From Acidobacteriota bacterium (GTDB taxonomy: Bacteria > Acidobacteriota > Terriglobia > Terriglobales > Acidobacteriaceae), in NCBI GenBank assembly GCA_018268755.1, contig JAFDVW010000007.1, positions 124,001-188,000 of the forward strand: a stretch of DNA of 64,000 nucleotides, given 5' to 3'. The notes under the pieces were generated by a model that was given only the letters and a program-made list of their open reading frames with translations, searched no databases and had not been told where the DNA came from. Made by a program: the position numbers and the translations under genes. This document shows positions 29,643-35,639 of the stretch, piece after piece; position 1 is the stretch's first letter, and every line of letters begins with the position of its first letter.

Positions 29643-30395
29643 ATGCGCGGACTACAAAACAAGCGAGTGCTCATTACTGGCGGGGCCAGCGGCATTGGCG
29701 CGGCCACGGCCGCACGCTTTCTGGAGGAAGGCTCGGCCGTCGTCGTGCTCGACCGCGACGCCAGAGGGCGCGAAGAAATTCAACATCAGCTTCCCCGCCT
29801 GGCCGGAACGGTGGCAGCGGATGTTTCCGACCTGAAGCAGGTGCAATCGGCTTTTGCCGGGGCTGTCCGCCTGATGGGCGGGGTGGATGTCCTGATCAAC
29901 AACGCCGGCATCAGCATTCGCCACAACTTCCTCGACATTACTCCGGAAGAATGGGACAAAGTGCTGGCGGTGAATCTGACCGGCGTGTTTTATGTGGCGC
30001 AGACCGCGGCACGGCACATGTGGGAGCACGGCGGCGGCGTGATTCTGCAGACGGCATCCACCAACGGAATCATGGGATACCCCTACTACGCGGACTACAA
30101 TGCCACCAAGGCCGGCGTGATCGAGCTCACCCGCTCCATGGCCCTCGAGCTGGCGCCGAAGGTGCGCGTCTGCGCCGTCGCTCCGGGCTATGTGCTGACC
30201 CCCATGCAACGCGCTGAATACACCGACGAGATGCTGGACGCGGTCAACAGCAAGATCCCGCTGCGCCGTCATGCCAAGCCGGAAGAAATTGCGGCCCTGT
30301 TCGCCTTTCTGGCGTCGGACGATGCGGCCTACGCCACCGGCCACGTCTACACCATGGATGGGGCGGAAACCGCAGGAGGCTTGGCCAGCCGCTGA
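29643..30395 (+). CDS. Short-chain dehydrogenase/reductase (SDR)
   Basis: Classical SDR of 250 aa, NAD(P)-dependent oxidoreductase. Dinucleotide loop VLITGGASGIGAATAARF, NNAGIS, and the catalytic Ser-Tyr-Lys group in TASTNGIMGYPYYADYNATKAG. An acidic residue after the second strand (VVVLDRDA) suggests NAD rather than NADP. The C-terminus ends YTMDGAETAGGLASR in place of the usual DGG motif. Substrate not identifiable. It is convergent with the nucleotidyltransferase gene, leaving one base between the stops. Confidence 0.9.
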   Translation: MRGLQNKRVLITGGASGIGAATAARFLEEGSAVVVLDRDARGREEIQHQLPRLAGTVAADVSDLKQVQSAFAGAVRLMGGVDVLINNAGISIRHNFLDITPEEWDKVLAVNLTGVFYVAQTAARHMWEHGGGVILQTASTNGIMGYPYYADYNATKAGVIELTRSMALELAPKVRVCAVAPGYVLTPMQRAEYTDEMLDAVNSKIPLRRHAKPEEIAALFAFLASDDAAYATGHVYTMDGAETAGGLASR

Positions 30396-31808: not shown

Positions 31809-32258
31809 ATGCAGTTCGTTGCCAAAGCTTACGAGAAAGCCCGCCGCAGCACGCGTATCCGGGCGCAAATCCCGGTGAGAGTTACCAGCCAGGACCCCGC
31901 CGACCCCTATAGCGAAAACTGCTATACCGTGGTGGTAAATCTGCAAGGATGCGGCGTGCGCCTGAATCATGCTTTGCAGCCCGGGACCCCGGTCCACCTG
32001 GATCAGCTGCCCACAGGGGCGGAAGTCAACGGCCGGGTGGCCAATTGTGTGGCCCTGGGGACGGAAGGAAAATACTGGCTGGTGGGAATTGCTTTCGCGG
32101 CCTCGGGAAACATCTGGGGACTGCATCCCGTTCCCGCGGACTGGGGAATGCCGGCCCGGCCTGCCGTGGCCGCTCCTGCGCATGGCGCAGCCAAGCCGCA
32201 AGGCTGGCCCTACAATCTCTTTTCCAGCCGTGGCGAAGCCCATCCCGGCAAGAAATAG
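31809..32258 (+). CDS. PilZ-like domain protein
   Basis: Encodes 149 aa. ARRSTRIRAQIPVRVTSQDP gives an RxxxR-type start of a PilZ domain, and VVVNLQGCGVRLNH sits where a [D/N]x[S/A]xxG motif is expected but has Gln in place of Ser/Ala, so c-di-GMP binding is uncertain. The last 50 residues are Pro/Ala-rich and probably disordered. It lies near a large c-di-GMP enzyme on the opposite strand, which gives functional context only. Confidence 0.75.
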   Translation: MQFVAKAYEKARRSTRIRAQIPVRVTSQDPADPYSENCYTVVVNLQGCGVRLNHALQPGTPVHLDQLPTGAEVNGRVANCVALGTEGKYWLVGIAFAASGNIWGLHPVPADWGMPARPAVAAPAHGAAKPQGWPYNLFSSRGEAHPGKK

Positions 32259-32487: not shown

Positions 32488-35250
32488 CTAGCTCTTAGCG
32501 TCCAGCAATTTGGCCAGGTAGCGATTGTCGTAGAACATGGTGGCGTTCTGCACGAATTCGAGGATGCGGGGCAGTTTCTCCCGGTTCTCGCGGTTCATGT
32601 CATTGAACGAGATGGCCACGCCGTTGCCGGGATCGATGCGCACCACGCTGCCTTCGGCGTGCAGCTTGCCGTCATCAATGGAGAAAACCAGGGTCAGGCC
32701 GGTGCCCGGGGTCAAAATGGCGCTGGTTTCCACGAAACACCCGCCCAGGCTGACATCGGTCAGGTTCCCCAACACTGGCGTACCGCCGCCGTGGGGCTGC
32801 AGCTCAATGGTCACGCGGCAACGCATGCGGGGATACATCCGCCGGTTCTTGCGCGAGGGCTGCTGCTGCTTCTCGATGTACATGCGGCGGTCGGCGGTCG
32901 CCAGCAGGCCTTCCGCGTCCTGCCCATCTTCCGGATAGGTGGCGTAACCCAGGCTGAGCGAAAGCAATTCCTCTTCGCAGACTTCGCGGCCCACATCGGT
33001 GGCCAAATCACGCAGCAAGGTCCCCTTCTTTTCAGCTGCGTCCGTGGTCAGGCCGGGCGCCACCAGAACGAACTCGTCGCCGCCCATGCGGGCCACGTAG
33101 TCGTACTCACGGCAGGTATCTTTTAGACGCTGCGCGAACAGACGCAACACGCGGTTCCCTTCCAGGTGCCCGAAGCGGTCATTGATCTGCTTGAACCCGT
33201 CCATGTCGCAGACCATCACGATCAAGGGCGCGGTGTCACGCTTGCAGCGGGCCAGTTCGCGGTCCAGCTGCAGGAAGAGCGAACGCGCATTGGGCAGGCC
33301 GGTAAGGTAGTCCGTGGTGGCCGAGCTTTCCGCCTGCTCGTACTTCAAGGCATTCTCAATCGCCAGAGCCATCTTGGAGCTAATGGCCAGCAGGATGCGC
33401 AGGTGGTCGGAAGTGAAGGCGTCGGTTTCGGCGTGATATAGCGACAAAACTCCCACCACGCCGGCCAGACCCTCCAGCGGTATGGCCATGGCGGAGCGCA
33501 GCGTGCTGAATTTCGAAGGATCGTTCAGGTATCCCGGTTCCACCGAGGGATTGCCATTGACGATCGGCTTCTTGTTTTCCGCGACCCAGCCCGAGAGCCC
33601 CTGGCCCAGCGGAATCTGCAGCGAAGAAAACAGCCGGAAGTTGTCGCCGTTGACATGCTCCGGCATCAGCAGATCGTTCCGGCGCACATAAATCACAATG
33701 GCGTCGTAGGGCACCAGCCGCTTCAGCTTCACGGAAAATACGGAAAGGGTCTCTCCCAGGCTAAGCGACGCGCCCAGGTCCTGACTCAGCTCAAACAGCG
33801 TCTGCGCTTCCTGGCGGGCCGCCGCGATGGAAGAGAGGAAGGTGGCTTCCTGGCCTTCCTTGGTGGAAATATCTTCAAAACCCGCGGCCGGCGCGAAACC
33901 ACGTTCTACCTTCAGATCTTTCGAGAGGGCCTTGCTCTCTTTATGGCCGAAGCGCGTCTCCACGATTTTTTCCAGCTCGCGATAGCGCTTTTGCAGGATA
34001 TTGACGACCCGGGGATCGAACGACTTTCCTGACTCACCCACCAGGCGCTGAATCACCACTTCCAGGGGCAAGGCCCGGCGATATTGCCGGTCCGAGGCCA
34101 AGGCATCCAGGTAATCGACAGCCGTTAAAATGCGCGCCCCGATAGGGATCTCTTCCCCTTTCAGGCCGAAGGGGTAGCCCGAACCATCCCATTTTTCGTG
34201 ATGAGCACGCACGATCGGCACCACAGGATAGGGGAAGCGCACTCGCTCCAGGATCTCCGCTCCCACCACGGGGTGGATCTTCATTTTTTCGAACTCTTCC
34301 GGCGTCAGACGGCCGGGCTTGGAGATGATGTGCTCGGGGACCGCCAACTTGCCGATGTCGTGCAAGAGCGCCGCCGCATGCAGGGCTTCCATCTCATCTT
34401 TGGTGACGCCCAGTTCTTTGGCCACTTCAATGGCATAAATGCGTACCCGCTGCAGGTGGTCGTGGGTGGTATGGTCTTTGGCTTCAATGGCCAGAGCCAG
34501 CGCTTCAATGGTGCGCAGATGGAGATTGGCCATCTCCTCCACATGCCGCTTTTCATCTTCCAGCCGGCTCAGATACAGGCGATAGGAGCGATAGACCAGA
34601 TAGACAGCGGGCAGAACGAGCAACGCCGTTTCCCAATGAAACATGCGATTGAGCCAGCCGATGCCCGAGGCAAGCGCCGCTCCCGCCAGATAGTAGGGAA
34701 ACGACCAGAAGTAGCAGTCAATCCACAGCCGGCGCAGCGACTTCGCGTCCGTCAGGGCTAGGTAGGTGGCGATGGACCCGGTGTTGGCCACAAAGTAGAC
34801 CGACGCCGCAATCAACAAGCGAAAGGTCTGGCTTTCCACTTCCGCCTGCAAAATGGAGTTGTGGAACACCCAGTACGCCAGCGCAATGGCGGAGGCGCTG
34901 GCACATAAATTGAACGTGACCCGCAGCGGGCTGGGGCGGTCGCGGTAAAAACACTGAATCAGCACCGCCACGCATCCCAGGACCAGCGTCTCCGTGAAAC
35001 TTAGCTCCAGGATGCCCAACAGCGTAAACAAGAAGTTCACCGACATGGTATCGGTAATTTCCGGCAGGTTGACCTTGAGCCGGGAGACCAGCAGCGAAAT
35101 CAGGAGATAACAGATAAATTCTGCGATGTTCTTGCTGCTGGGGTGCAATACCCCATACACAAGAACTACGCTGCCTGAGGCCACCATCAGGCTGAAAAAG
35201 ATCTTCGCGCTCCAAGGCGTGAATCGCCATGGCTGCGCACTCTGGCCCAT
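32488..35250 (-). CDS. Membrane protein with HD-GYP, GAF, GGDEF and PilZ domains
   Basis: Encodes 920 aa from ATG 35250 (AGGA five bases upstream; ATG 35271 is an alternative). About seven membrane helices fill residues 15-222. An HD-GYP phosphodiesterase domain follows (about 240-425) with LLHDIGKLAVPEHI, HHEKWDGSGYP and TAVDYLDAL. Then come a GAF domain (about 475-640), a GGDEF domain (about 645-795) with RMGGDEFVLV and an intact RxxD inhibition site (REYD) five residues before it, and a C-terminal PilZ domain (about 800-900) with RRMYPR and NLTDVSLGGCF. It could make, break and sense c-di-GMP in one chain. Single gene, upstream of and divergent from tRNA-Ile. Confidence 0.93.
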   Translation of the reverse strand: MGQSAQPWRFTPWSAKIFFSLMVASGSVVLVYGVLHPSSKNIAEFICYLLISLLVSRLKVNLPEITDTMSVNFLFTLLGILELSFTETLVLGCVAVLIQCFYRDRPSPLRVTFNLCASASAIALAYWVFHNSILQAEVESQTFRLLIAASVYFVANTGSIATYLALTDAKSLRRLWIDCYFWSFPYYLAGAALASGIGWLNRMFHWETALLVLPAVYLVYRSYRLYLSRLEDEKRHVEEMANLHLRTIEALALAIEAKDHTTHDHLQRVRIYAIEVAKELGVTKDEMEALHAAALLHDIGKLAVPEHIISKPGRLTPEEFEKMKIHPVVGAEILERVRFPYPVVPIVRAHHEKWDGSGYPFGLKGEEIPIGARILTAVDYLDALASDRQYRRALPLEVVIQRLVGESGKSFDPRVVNILQKRYRELEKIVETRFGHKESKALSKDLKVERGFAPAAGFEDISTKEGQEATFLSSIAAARQEAQTLFELSQDLGASLSLGETLSVFSVKLKRLVPYDAIVIYVRRNDLLMPEHVNGDNFRLFSSLQIPLGQGLSGWVAENKKPIVNGNPSVEPGYLNDPSKFSTLRSAMAIPLEGLAGVVGVLSLYHAETDAFTSDHLRILLAISSKMALAIENALKYEQAESSATTDYLTGLPNARSLFLQLDRELARCKRDTAPLIVMVCDMDGFKQINDRFGHLEGNRVLRLFAQRLKDTCREYDYVARMGGDEFVLVAPGLTTDAAEKKGTLLRDLATDVGREVCEEELLSLSLGYATYPEDGQDAEGLLATADRRMYIEKQQQPSRKNRRMYPRMRCRVTIELQPHGGGTPVLGNLTDVSLGGCFVETSAILTPGTGLTLVFSIDDGKLHAEGSVVRIDPGNGVAISFNDMNRENREKLPRILEFVQNATMFYDNRYLAKLLDAKS

Positions 35251-35563
35251 CTCTTTCCTAAACTGCAGCATAGGGTTGGTATATGGTGCTCTGCCGGGGG
35301 ATGCGACGCTTCTAGAGATATCAGCTAACCCGCTGTTGTACAACAACTTAGCGAAATTCTCGGCAAACTTTGGTAACTTTCTCCAAGTACTGTCTGGAAG
35401 CTGGAGGCAAGTGCCTTCATCTCCACGAACTTACGCTGGCCGGGAGAGGCGCGACCGGGGACCGGGGGAAAGAGAGCGGGCGAGGGGACAAAAATGGCCC
35501 TCCTCTTGCTCGGGCTCCCCACTCTGCCAGAGGCCCCTCCAAATTATGCTAGATTGGGCAAGC
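35251..35563. other. Spacer between the c-di-GMP enzyme and tRNA-Ile
   Basis: About 310 bases carrying the promoters of both divergent units. No clear operator or RNA element is visible other than the tRNA that follows. Confidence 0.4.
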
Positions 35564-35639
35564 GGGCCCGTAGCTCAGCGGTTAGAGCAGTGGACTCATA
35601 ATCCATTGGTCCAAGGTTCAAATCCTTGCGGGCCCACCA
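35564..35639 (+). tRNA. tRNA-Ile (CAU anticodon, lysidine type)
   Basis: 76 bases with CCA encoded. Acceptor arms GGGCCCG / CGGGCCC pair fully, with discriminator A. The D-arm has TAGCTCAGCGGTTAGAGCA, the anticodon loop reads CTCATAA (CAT), and the T-arm is CAAGGTTCAAATCCTTG. The body matches the elongator Ile2 type, whose CAU is modified to lysidine-AU to read AUA, rather than initiator or elongator Met. The Ile2 against Met call is by resemblance. Confidence 0.9.

Follow-up and report, generated by a model that had tools for sequence, protein, structure and literature searches.

Does a single membrane protein with HD-GYP, GGDEF and PilZ domains make, degrade and sense cyclic di-GMP (c-di-GMP), as a preliminary description proposed for one gene of an Acidobacteriota bacterium? 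The gene, from a soil bacterium, lies in a 64,000-nucleotide window (contig JAFDVW010000007.1, positions 124,001 to 188,000) and encodes a conserved multi-domain signalling protein (Table 1). The reading favoured here, at about an even chance, is that of a ligand-controlled membrane receptor-enzyme holding the HD-GYP/GGDEF/PilZ set in cis. The main interest is not the list of domains but an altered pair of selectivity residues in GGDEF, together with a putative receptor domain resembling the S-components of energy-coupling factor (ECF) transporters.

Table 1. Features of the gene and its PilZ neighbour (window coordinates; residue numbers refer to the 952-aa frame)
Feature	Coordinates	Strand	Basis
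Whole gene, 920 aa	32488..35250	-	ATG 35250; in-frame upstream TTG 35346
Membrane domain of six helices preceded by one at the N-terminus; predicted fold like that of S-components; weak match to Pfam MASE9	34639..35214	-	AlphaFold2 model, VIA-align, Pfam scan of 54 members
Helix joining membrane domain to HD-GYP	34492..34638	-	Secondary structure of models
HD-GYP phosphodiesterase domain, seven usual metal ligands present, Thr for PmGH Glu185	34006..34491	-	Pfam, alignments
GAF domain	33355..33756	-	Pfam
GGDEF domain	32860..33321	-	Pfam and further sequence search
Codon Ala687, site of PleD Arg300	33286..33288	-	Alignments
Codon Asn731, site of PleD Asp344	33154..33156	-	Alignments
I-site RxxD (REYD)	33100..33111	-	Motif, alignments
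GGDEF signature	33070..33084	-	Motif, alignments
C-terminal PilZ domain, RxxxR and DxSxxG	32557..32847	-	Pfam, motif check
Small single PilZ protein, convergent neighbour	31809..32258	+	Pfam, neighbourhood comparison

Domain order and origin of the PilZ tail

An uninterrupted open reading frame of 952 aa begins at a TTG codon (32488-35346, minus strand). The start common to the relatives lies at about ATG 35250, as first described, and gives 920 aa. In the 952-aa numbering, Pfam finds HD_5 (286-447, 124.9 bits), GAF_2 (575-664) with GAF (531-663), GGDEF (676-829, 138.1 bits), and PilZ (834-930, 53.1 bits), all above the curated cut-offs. From the N- to the C-terminus the order is seven-helix membrane domain, HD-GYP, GAF, GGDEF, and PilZ. 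The membrane part is N-terminal as described before, but GAF stands between HD-GYP and GGDEF and not ahead of both. The motifs HDIGK, HHEKWDGSGYP, REYD-5-GGDEF, RMYPR, and DVSLGG are all intact, which bears out the earlier account of both enzyme signatures, the RxxD inhibitory site (I-site) and the two PilZ motifs. Since the motifs are also kept in relatives, the architecture is not due to chance.

The backbone without PilZ is widespread in Acidobacteriota, with matches at E ≤1e-90 in 129 of 399 genomes of the class and in 84 of 297 genomes of the phylum. Among the matches listed, those reaching the PilZ end occur in at least nine of the 399 class genomes (G000, G006, G268, G277, G283, G328, G342, G391, and G407), each belonging to the family that the window comes from; in the phylum search, no match outside this family extends beyond query residue 826 of 920. 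The architecture is rare to this extent, as had been suggested, but it is a lineage of 55 distinct tailed rows and no one-off. The named relatives are acidobacterial assemblies, many of them Candidatus Sulfotelmatobacter or "Acidobacteriaceae". Among 80 of 431 confirmed loci, 51 are tailed, 26 untailed, and three cut off, and some genomes (G006 and G014) have tailed and untailed copies side by side.

In a tree of 109 rows inferred with the tail left out, the 55 tailed rows form one side of a single branch (Shimodaira-Hasegawa-like approximate likelihood ratio test support 99), and one gain of the tail would explain the tree. It is a quick tree without bootstrap, with long branches flagged, and was made from 122 rows by dropping one short row and 12 with identical last 400 residues; four of its rows have no tail label, and residue 344 (see below) is readable in 106. 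When the fast-evolving tailed relative L097 is added, it groups with the tailed side and a single change is still enough (support 87). Further gains of PilZ were sought in eight relatives that partly overrun GGDEF; none of these eight frames matches the tail profile at E ≤10, and only L097 does. Several copies are irregular. L097 (G005:C108) has lost most of its membrane domain and has SGDEF in place of GGDEF but a PilZ tail, and is a decayed or specialised copy. Untailed L246 (G022:C48) has a frame ending at 836 aa, and tblastn similarity continues past stops to residue 948; its tail was possibly cut off. One member (L020, G039:C46:89063-91404) is matched as two adjacent pieces in different frames.

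The PilZ domain of the window has RxxxR and (D/N)xSxxG, the motif pair expected of a c-di-GMP receptor. Alone, this part matches no solved chain by sequence at E ≤0.1; its Pfam match is clear. RxxxR is found in 55 of 55 tailed rows and (D/N)xSxxG in 54 (the exception is L013), which speaks against a decaying tail and suggests that c-di-GMP binding is under selection. The same retention bears on an alternative in which PilZ is an output adaptor to a partner (e.g., a pilus motor) and does not feed back on either enzyme. According to part of PMC3749722, a complex involving the GYP and DxD motifs is built in Xanthomonas from the HD-GYP protein RpfG, GGDEF proteins and a PilZ protein, and it acts on pilus motors; its PilZ protein XC_2249 is such an adaptor, and neither cyclase activity nor binding of c-di-GMP to PilZ is required there. 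The tail of the present protein was also joined onto an already complete enzyme. The retention of both motifs in nearly all tailed rows counts against such an adaptor, and this alternative is plausible but less likely than not. The "self-limiting switch" suggested earlier appears compatible with the I-site and PilZ motifs. Note that the I-site is already found in untailed relatives, so limitation by the I-site would need no PilZ.

Active sites of the GGDEF and HD-GYP domains

The GGDEF domain has the GG(D/E)EF signature and metal Asp of canonical diguanylate cyclases but lacks their Asp344 and Arg300. At the positions that we take, from PleD numbering, to be these two sites, it has Asn and Ala. 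The domain is thus intact in its signature and RxxD, as described before, but altered in both base-selectivity residues, and because of this the claim that it makes c-di-GMP is unsafe. In part of PMC6456294 the two sites are linked to base choice. Asn replaces the Asp of "GHxxGD" in 95 of the 106 readable family rows, including 55 of 55 tailed rows, and the 11 rows with Asp are all untailed. The first Arg of the canonical "NRR" is Ala in 12 of 12 rows of alignment A1 and in 51 of 51 tailed loci, and those Asp344 rows that were printed also carry Ala300.

These substitutions might weaken catalysis yet spare binding, so that HD-GYP works and GGDEF is merely an allosteric sensor of GTP or c-di-GMP. 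Such a regulatory role is called typical for tandems (PMC6205966), and the GGDEF proteins bound to RpfG need no cyclase activity in motility, as stated in part of PMC3749722. The conserved residues argue the other way. The I-site and GGDEF are kept in 41 of 42 aligned rows (L021 is degenerate), and the 51 rows of alignment A3 show no variation in the GGDEF signature, in the first metal Asp, in the FKxxND Lys or in the Arg and Asp of the I-site; mere binding would not need all of these. A purely regulatory GGDEF domain is considered rather unlikely.

In the HD-GYP domain, HDIGK and HHExx(D/N)GxGYP are kept in the relatives and the seven usual metal ligands are invariant in A3. The window protein itself has HDxGK, HHExxDGxGYP and all usual ligands, consistent with an active enzyme. 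Thr aligns with Glu185 of PmGH, the third-metal ligand, and Glu is found at this site in none of 42 aligned rows. Two metals are thus expected in the window protein, and dinuclear HD-GYPs reportedly stop at the linear product (PMC8177086, in part); without the third-metal Glu, the domain probably hydrolyses its substrate only to the linear form. PmGH (4mcw) and V-cGAP3 (5z7c) are the best solved relatives in the domain search. PmGH reaches E 1e-39 and 138.9 bits on one stretch, V-cGAP3 E 9.5e-40 summed over two stretches with at best 106.8 bits, and PmGH scores higher when the best stretches are compared one to one and also when the whole chain is searched. It is stated in part of a review that the origin of the preference for cyclic GMP-AMP (cGAMP) or c-di-GMP may vary among HD-GYPs. 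A second frame in the same genome (G000:C5:115556-116707, 1143 aa) has GGDEF followed by HD-GYP.

The altered pair also raises the question of whether the GGDEF domain takes ATP besides GTP, so that its product would be 3',3'-cGAMP or a mixture, with c-di-GMP regulating the enzyme through the I-site and PilZ. Asn344 in every tailed row and Ala300 in every tailed row read are in line with this. According to parts of PMC6456294, Ser or Thr at site 344 marks the Hypr enzymes and is restricted to domains with GGDE[F/Y], as in the window's signature; Arg occupies the second site in 94% of predicted diguanylate cyclases, and cGAMP is the main product of Hypr enzymes in which this site is Tyr, Ser, Ala or Gln. 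The same genome also encodes a Ser344/Ala300 GGDEF domain with the signature of a Hypr-type cGAMP synthase (L069, G000:C36:437708-438178). It has 13 Pfam GGDEF places, some of them split; of the nine domains read by motif search, seven have Asp344, one Ser344 (L069), and one Asn344 (the window's domain).

The two sites are linked beyond this family. In a pattern search of 299 genomes of the class, 89 have the Asn344 motif and 266 the Asp motif; the backwards control matched once, with the Asp pattern, and no match was seen with the Asn pattern. Among 30 loci per type, taken one per genome as returned and not at random, non-Arg300 is found in 26 of 29 readable Asn344 domains (one is unreadable) vs. 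5 of 30 Asp344 domains. Among loci counted as outside the window's family, because LPNAR is absent and the visible frame lacks HD[IV]GK, the counts are 15 of 18 vs. 4 of 26. The p values (1e-8 and 9e-6) are nominal because related sequences are not independent. As the link is found in other chains as well, it fits a shared active-site solution. Other acidobacterial GGDEF proteins (L180-L185, open frames of 413-450 aa) have the motif NDT(F/Y)GHVVGN, with site 300 occupied by Thr or Ala.

Several points count against cGAMP as the product. Hypr is defined by Ser or Thr, the window and all tailed rows have Asn, and no assayed Asn enzyme was seen in the literature. Three of the 29 Asn enzymes retain Arg300. 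The 11 Asp rows within the family, with Ala300 in those printed, suggest that Asn may be a tolerated variant. In addition, on the best-stretch bit scores given above the HD-GYP domain resembles PmGH, a c-di-GMP enzyme, more than V-cGAP3, which is specific for cGAMP, and the PilZ motifs are of the c-di-GMP type. A promiscuous or cGAMP-making enzyme is held to be improbable. The Asn344 motif offers a specific and cheap test of GGDEF base choice across the class.

The membrane domain and a proposed ligand-set switch

The AlphaFold2 model of the membrane domain (54 rows; mean predicted local distance difference test 83.6, predicted template modelling score 0.81) has one helix followed by six. In VIA-align, ECF S-components fill ranks 1-22 of the 50 rows listed (Z 14.0 to 9.8), followed by MreD (Z 8.2) and by other folds from Z 7.2. 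Two of these 22 rows are titled just "transition metal transporter" and are presumably NikM. The predicted fold is therefore closest to that of ECF S-components plus one helix. Helical models often reach Z of about 14, so that Z alone is no proof of fold, and the weight lies in one family filling the first 22 ranks. With this caveat, the model has the six-helix fold, helix H0, and cytosolic output of an S-component receptor. In ECF transporters, AxxxA in helix 1 of the S-component serves EcfT binding. A pattern search of residues 39-58 (the helix-1 region, and not a structural alignment) finds no AxxxA in the window, and only 7 of 54 members have it. In part of PMC11109136, MreD is given the same fold as S-components, and 5TMR receptors are described as this fold with one additional N-terminal helix and with AxxxA lost. 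On the predicted model, a receptor is the better guess than a transporter.

In the favoured mechanism, the seven-helix domain would bind a small ligand and shift the long helix beneath it. This shift would set the dimer state of HD-GYP, which would hydrolyse a cyclic dinucleotide, while the same stalk and the GAF domain would set the GGDEF dimer, which would make one. The I-site would brake GGDEF, and the PilZ tail, added to the older backbone, would read c-di-GMP and either feed back on the chain or pass the signal to a partner. The net result would be a switch between breakdown and synthesis set by the ligand.

Some results weigh against this ligand-controlled receptor-enzyme. Z 14 is the typical best value for five mostly helical models. 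Foldseek with the membrane domain finds no match at E <0.001, and its S-component rows have E ≥0.06. MASE9 (PF20972) matches 39 of 54 family members at E ≤1 (best 2.3e-10); in the window it reaches only E 0.34 and 11.2 bits, below the cut-off of 24.3. The full-length model (predicted template modelling score 0.38) gives no domain packing. Finally, a conserved operon was sought around L086-L097 and L099-L149, and only patches and no clade-wide gene were found, so that no target is indicated.

A c-di-GMP-gated enzyme for another messenger, in which an S-component receptor would control a third-class GGDEF (Asn344, non-Arg300) making cGAMP or a mixture, HD-GYP would remove the product, and PilZ and the I-site would read c-di-GMP, would unite two dinucleotide circuits and ligand sensing in one chain but is quite improbable.

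Known systems and gene neighbourhood

The Xanthomonas campestris RpfG/GGDEF/PilZ (XC_2249) set has the same three module types, and the window chain has both GYP and the GGDEF DxD (DxN in some of its relatives). Unlike the window chain, it consists of three proteins with REC input and no membrane receptor, as described in part of PMC3749722. If both enzymes and PilZ work, the window protein would be a one-chain version of a complex that the literature examined describes as separate proteins, and feedback could be measured in a single purified protein. No fused HD-GYP/GGDEF/PilZ chain turned up in the open-licence literature, as judged by listings, which is a weak negative.

PmGH of Persephonella is similar in HD-GYP sequence and metal ligands but has Glu185 and three irons (PMC8177086, in part). 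V-cGAP3 is similar in total E value but has two HD-type stretches. The Hypr GGDEF proteins GacA and Bd0367 share with the window protein a non-Arg cross-dimer site, a non-Asp base site and the GGDEF motif, but have Ser or Thr where the window protein has Asn. LytS-type 5TMR receptors share the predicted six-helix fold and the extra N-terminal helix; in contrast, the nearest Pfam family of the window domain is MASE9. The terms MASE and HD-GYP are absent from the main text of PMC11109136, and a search for MASE together with ECF in listings of open-licence literature gave nothing on MASE9. An S-component-like receptor would extend the link between transporters and receptors published in PMC11109136, bringing in a further Pfam family and HD-GYP outputs.

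Of 51 related loci, 8 have a gene similar to the small PilZ neighbour (31809-32258) at a distance of about 0.04 to 4.2 kb. An origin of the tail from this neighbour is unsupported (28% identity, E 0.16). The genome has 33 PilZ places; among the eight loci compared with the tail (L001, L003-L008, and L098), L006 is the closest (E 3e-11). A c-di-GMP-I riboswitch search gave no match, and neither did its control. Near one tailed relative, a short-chain dehydrogenase gene (L102:11278-12027) is 88% identical to the window gene at 29643-30395, indicating partly common gene order. The only tRNA gene found in the window, tRNA-Met (35564-35639, plus strand), lies immediately upstream of the gene.
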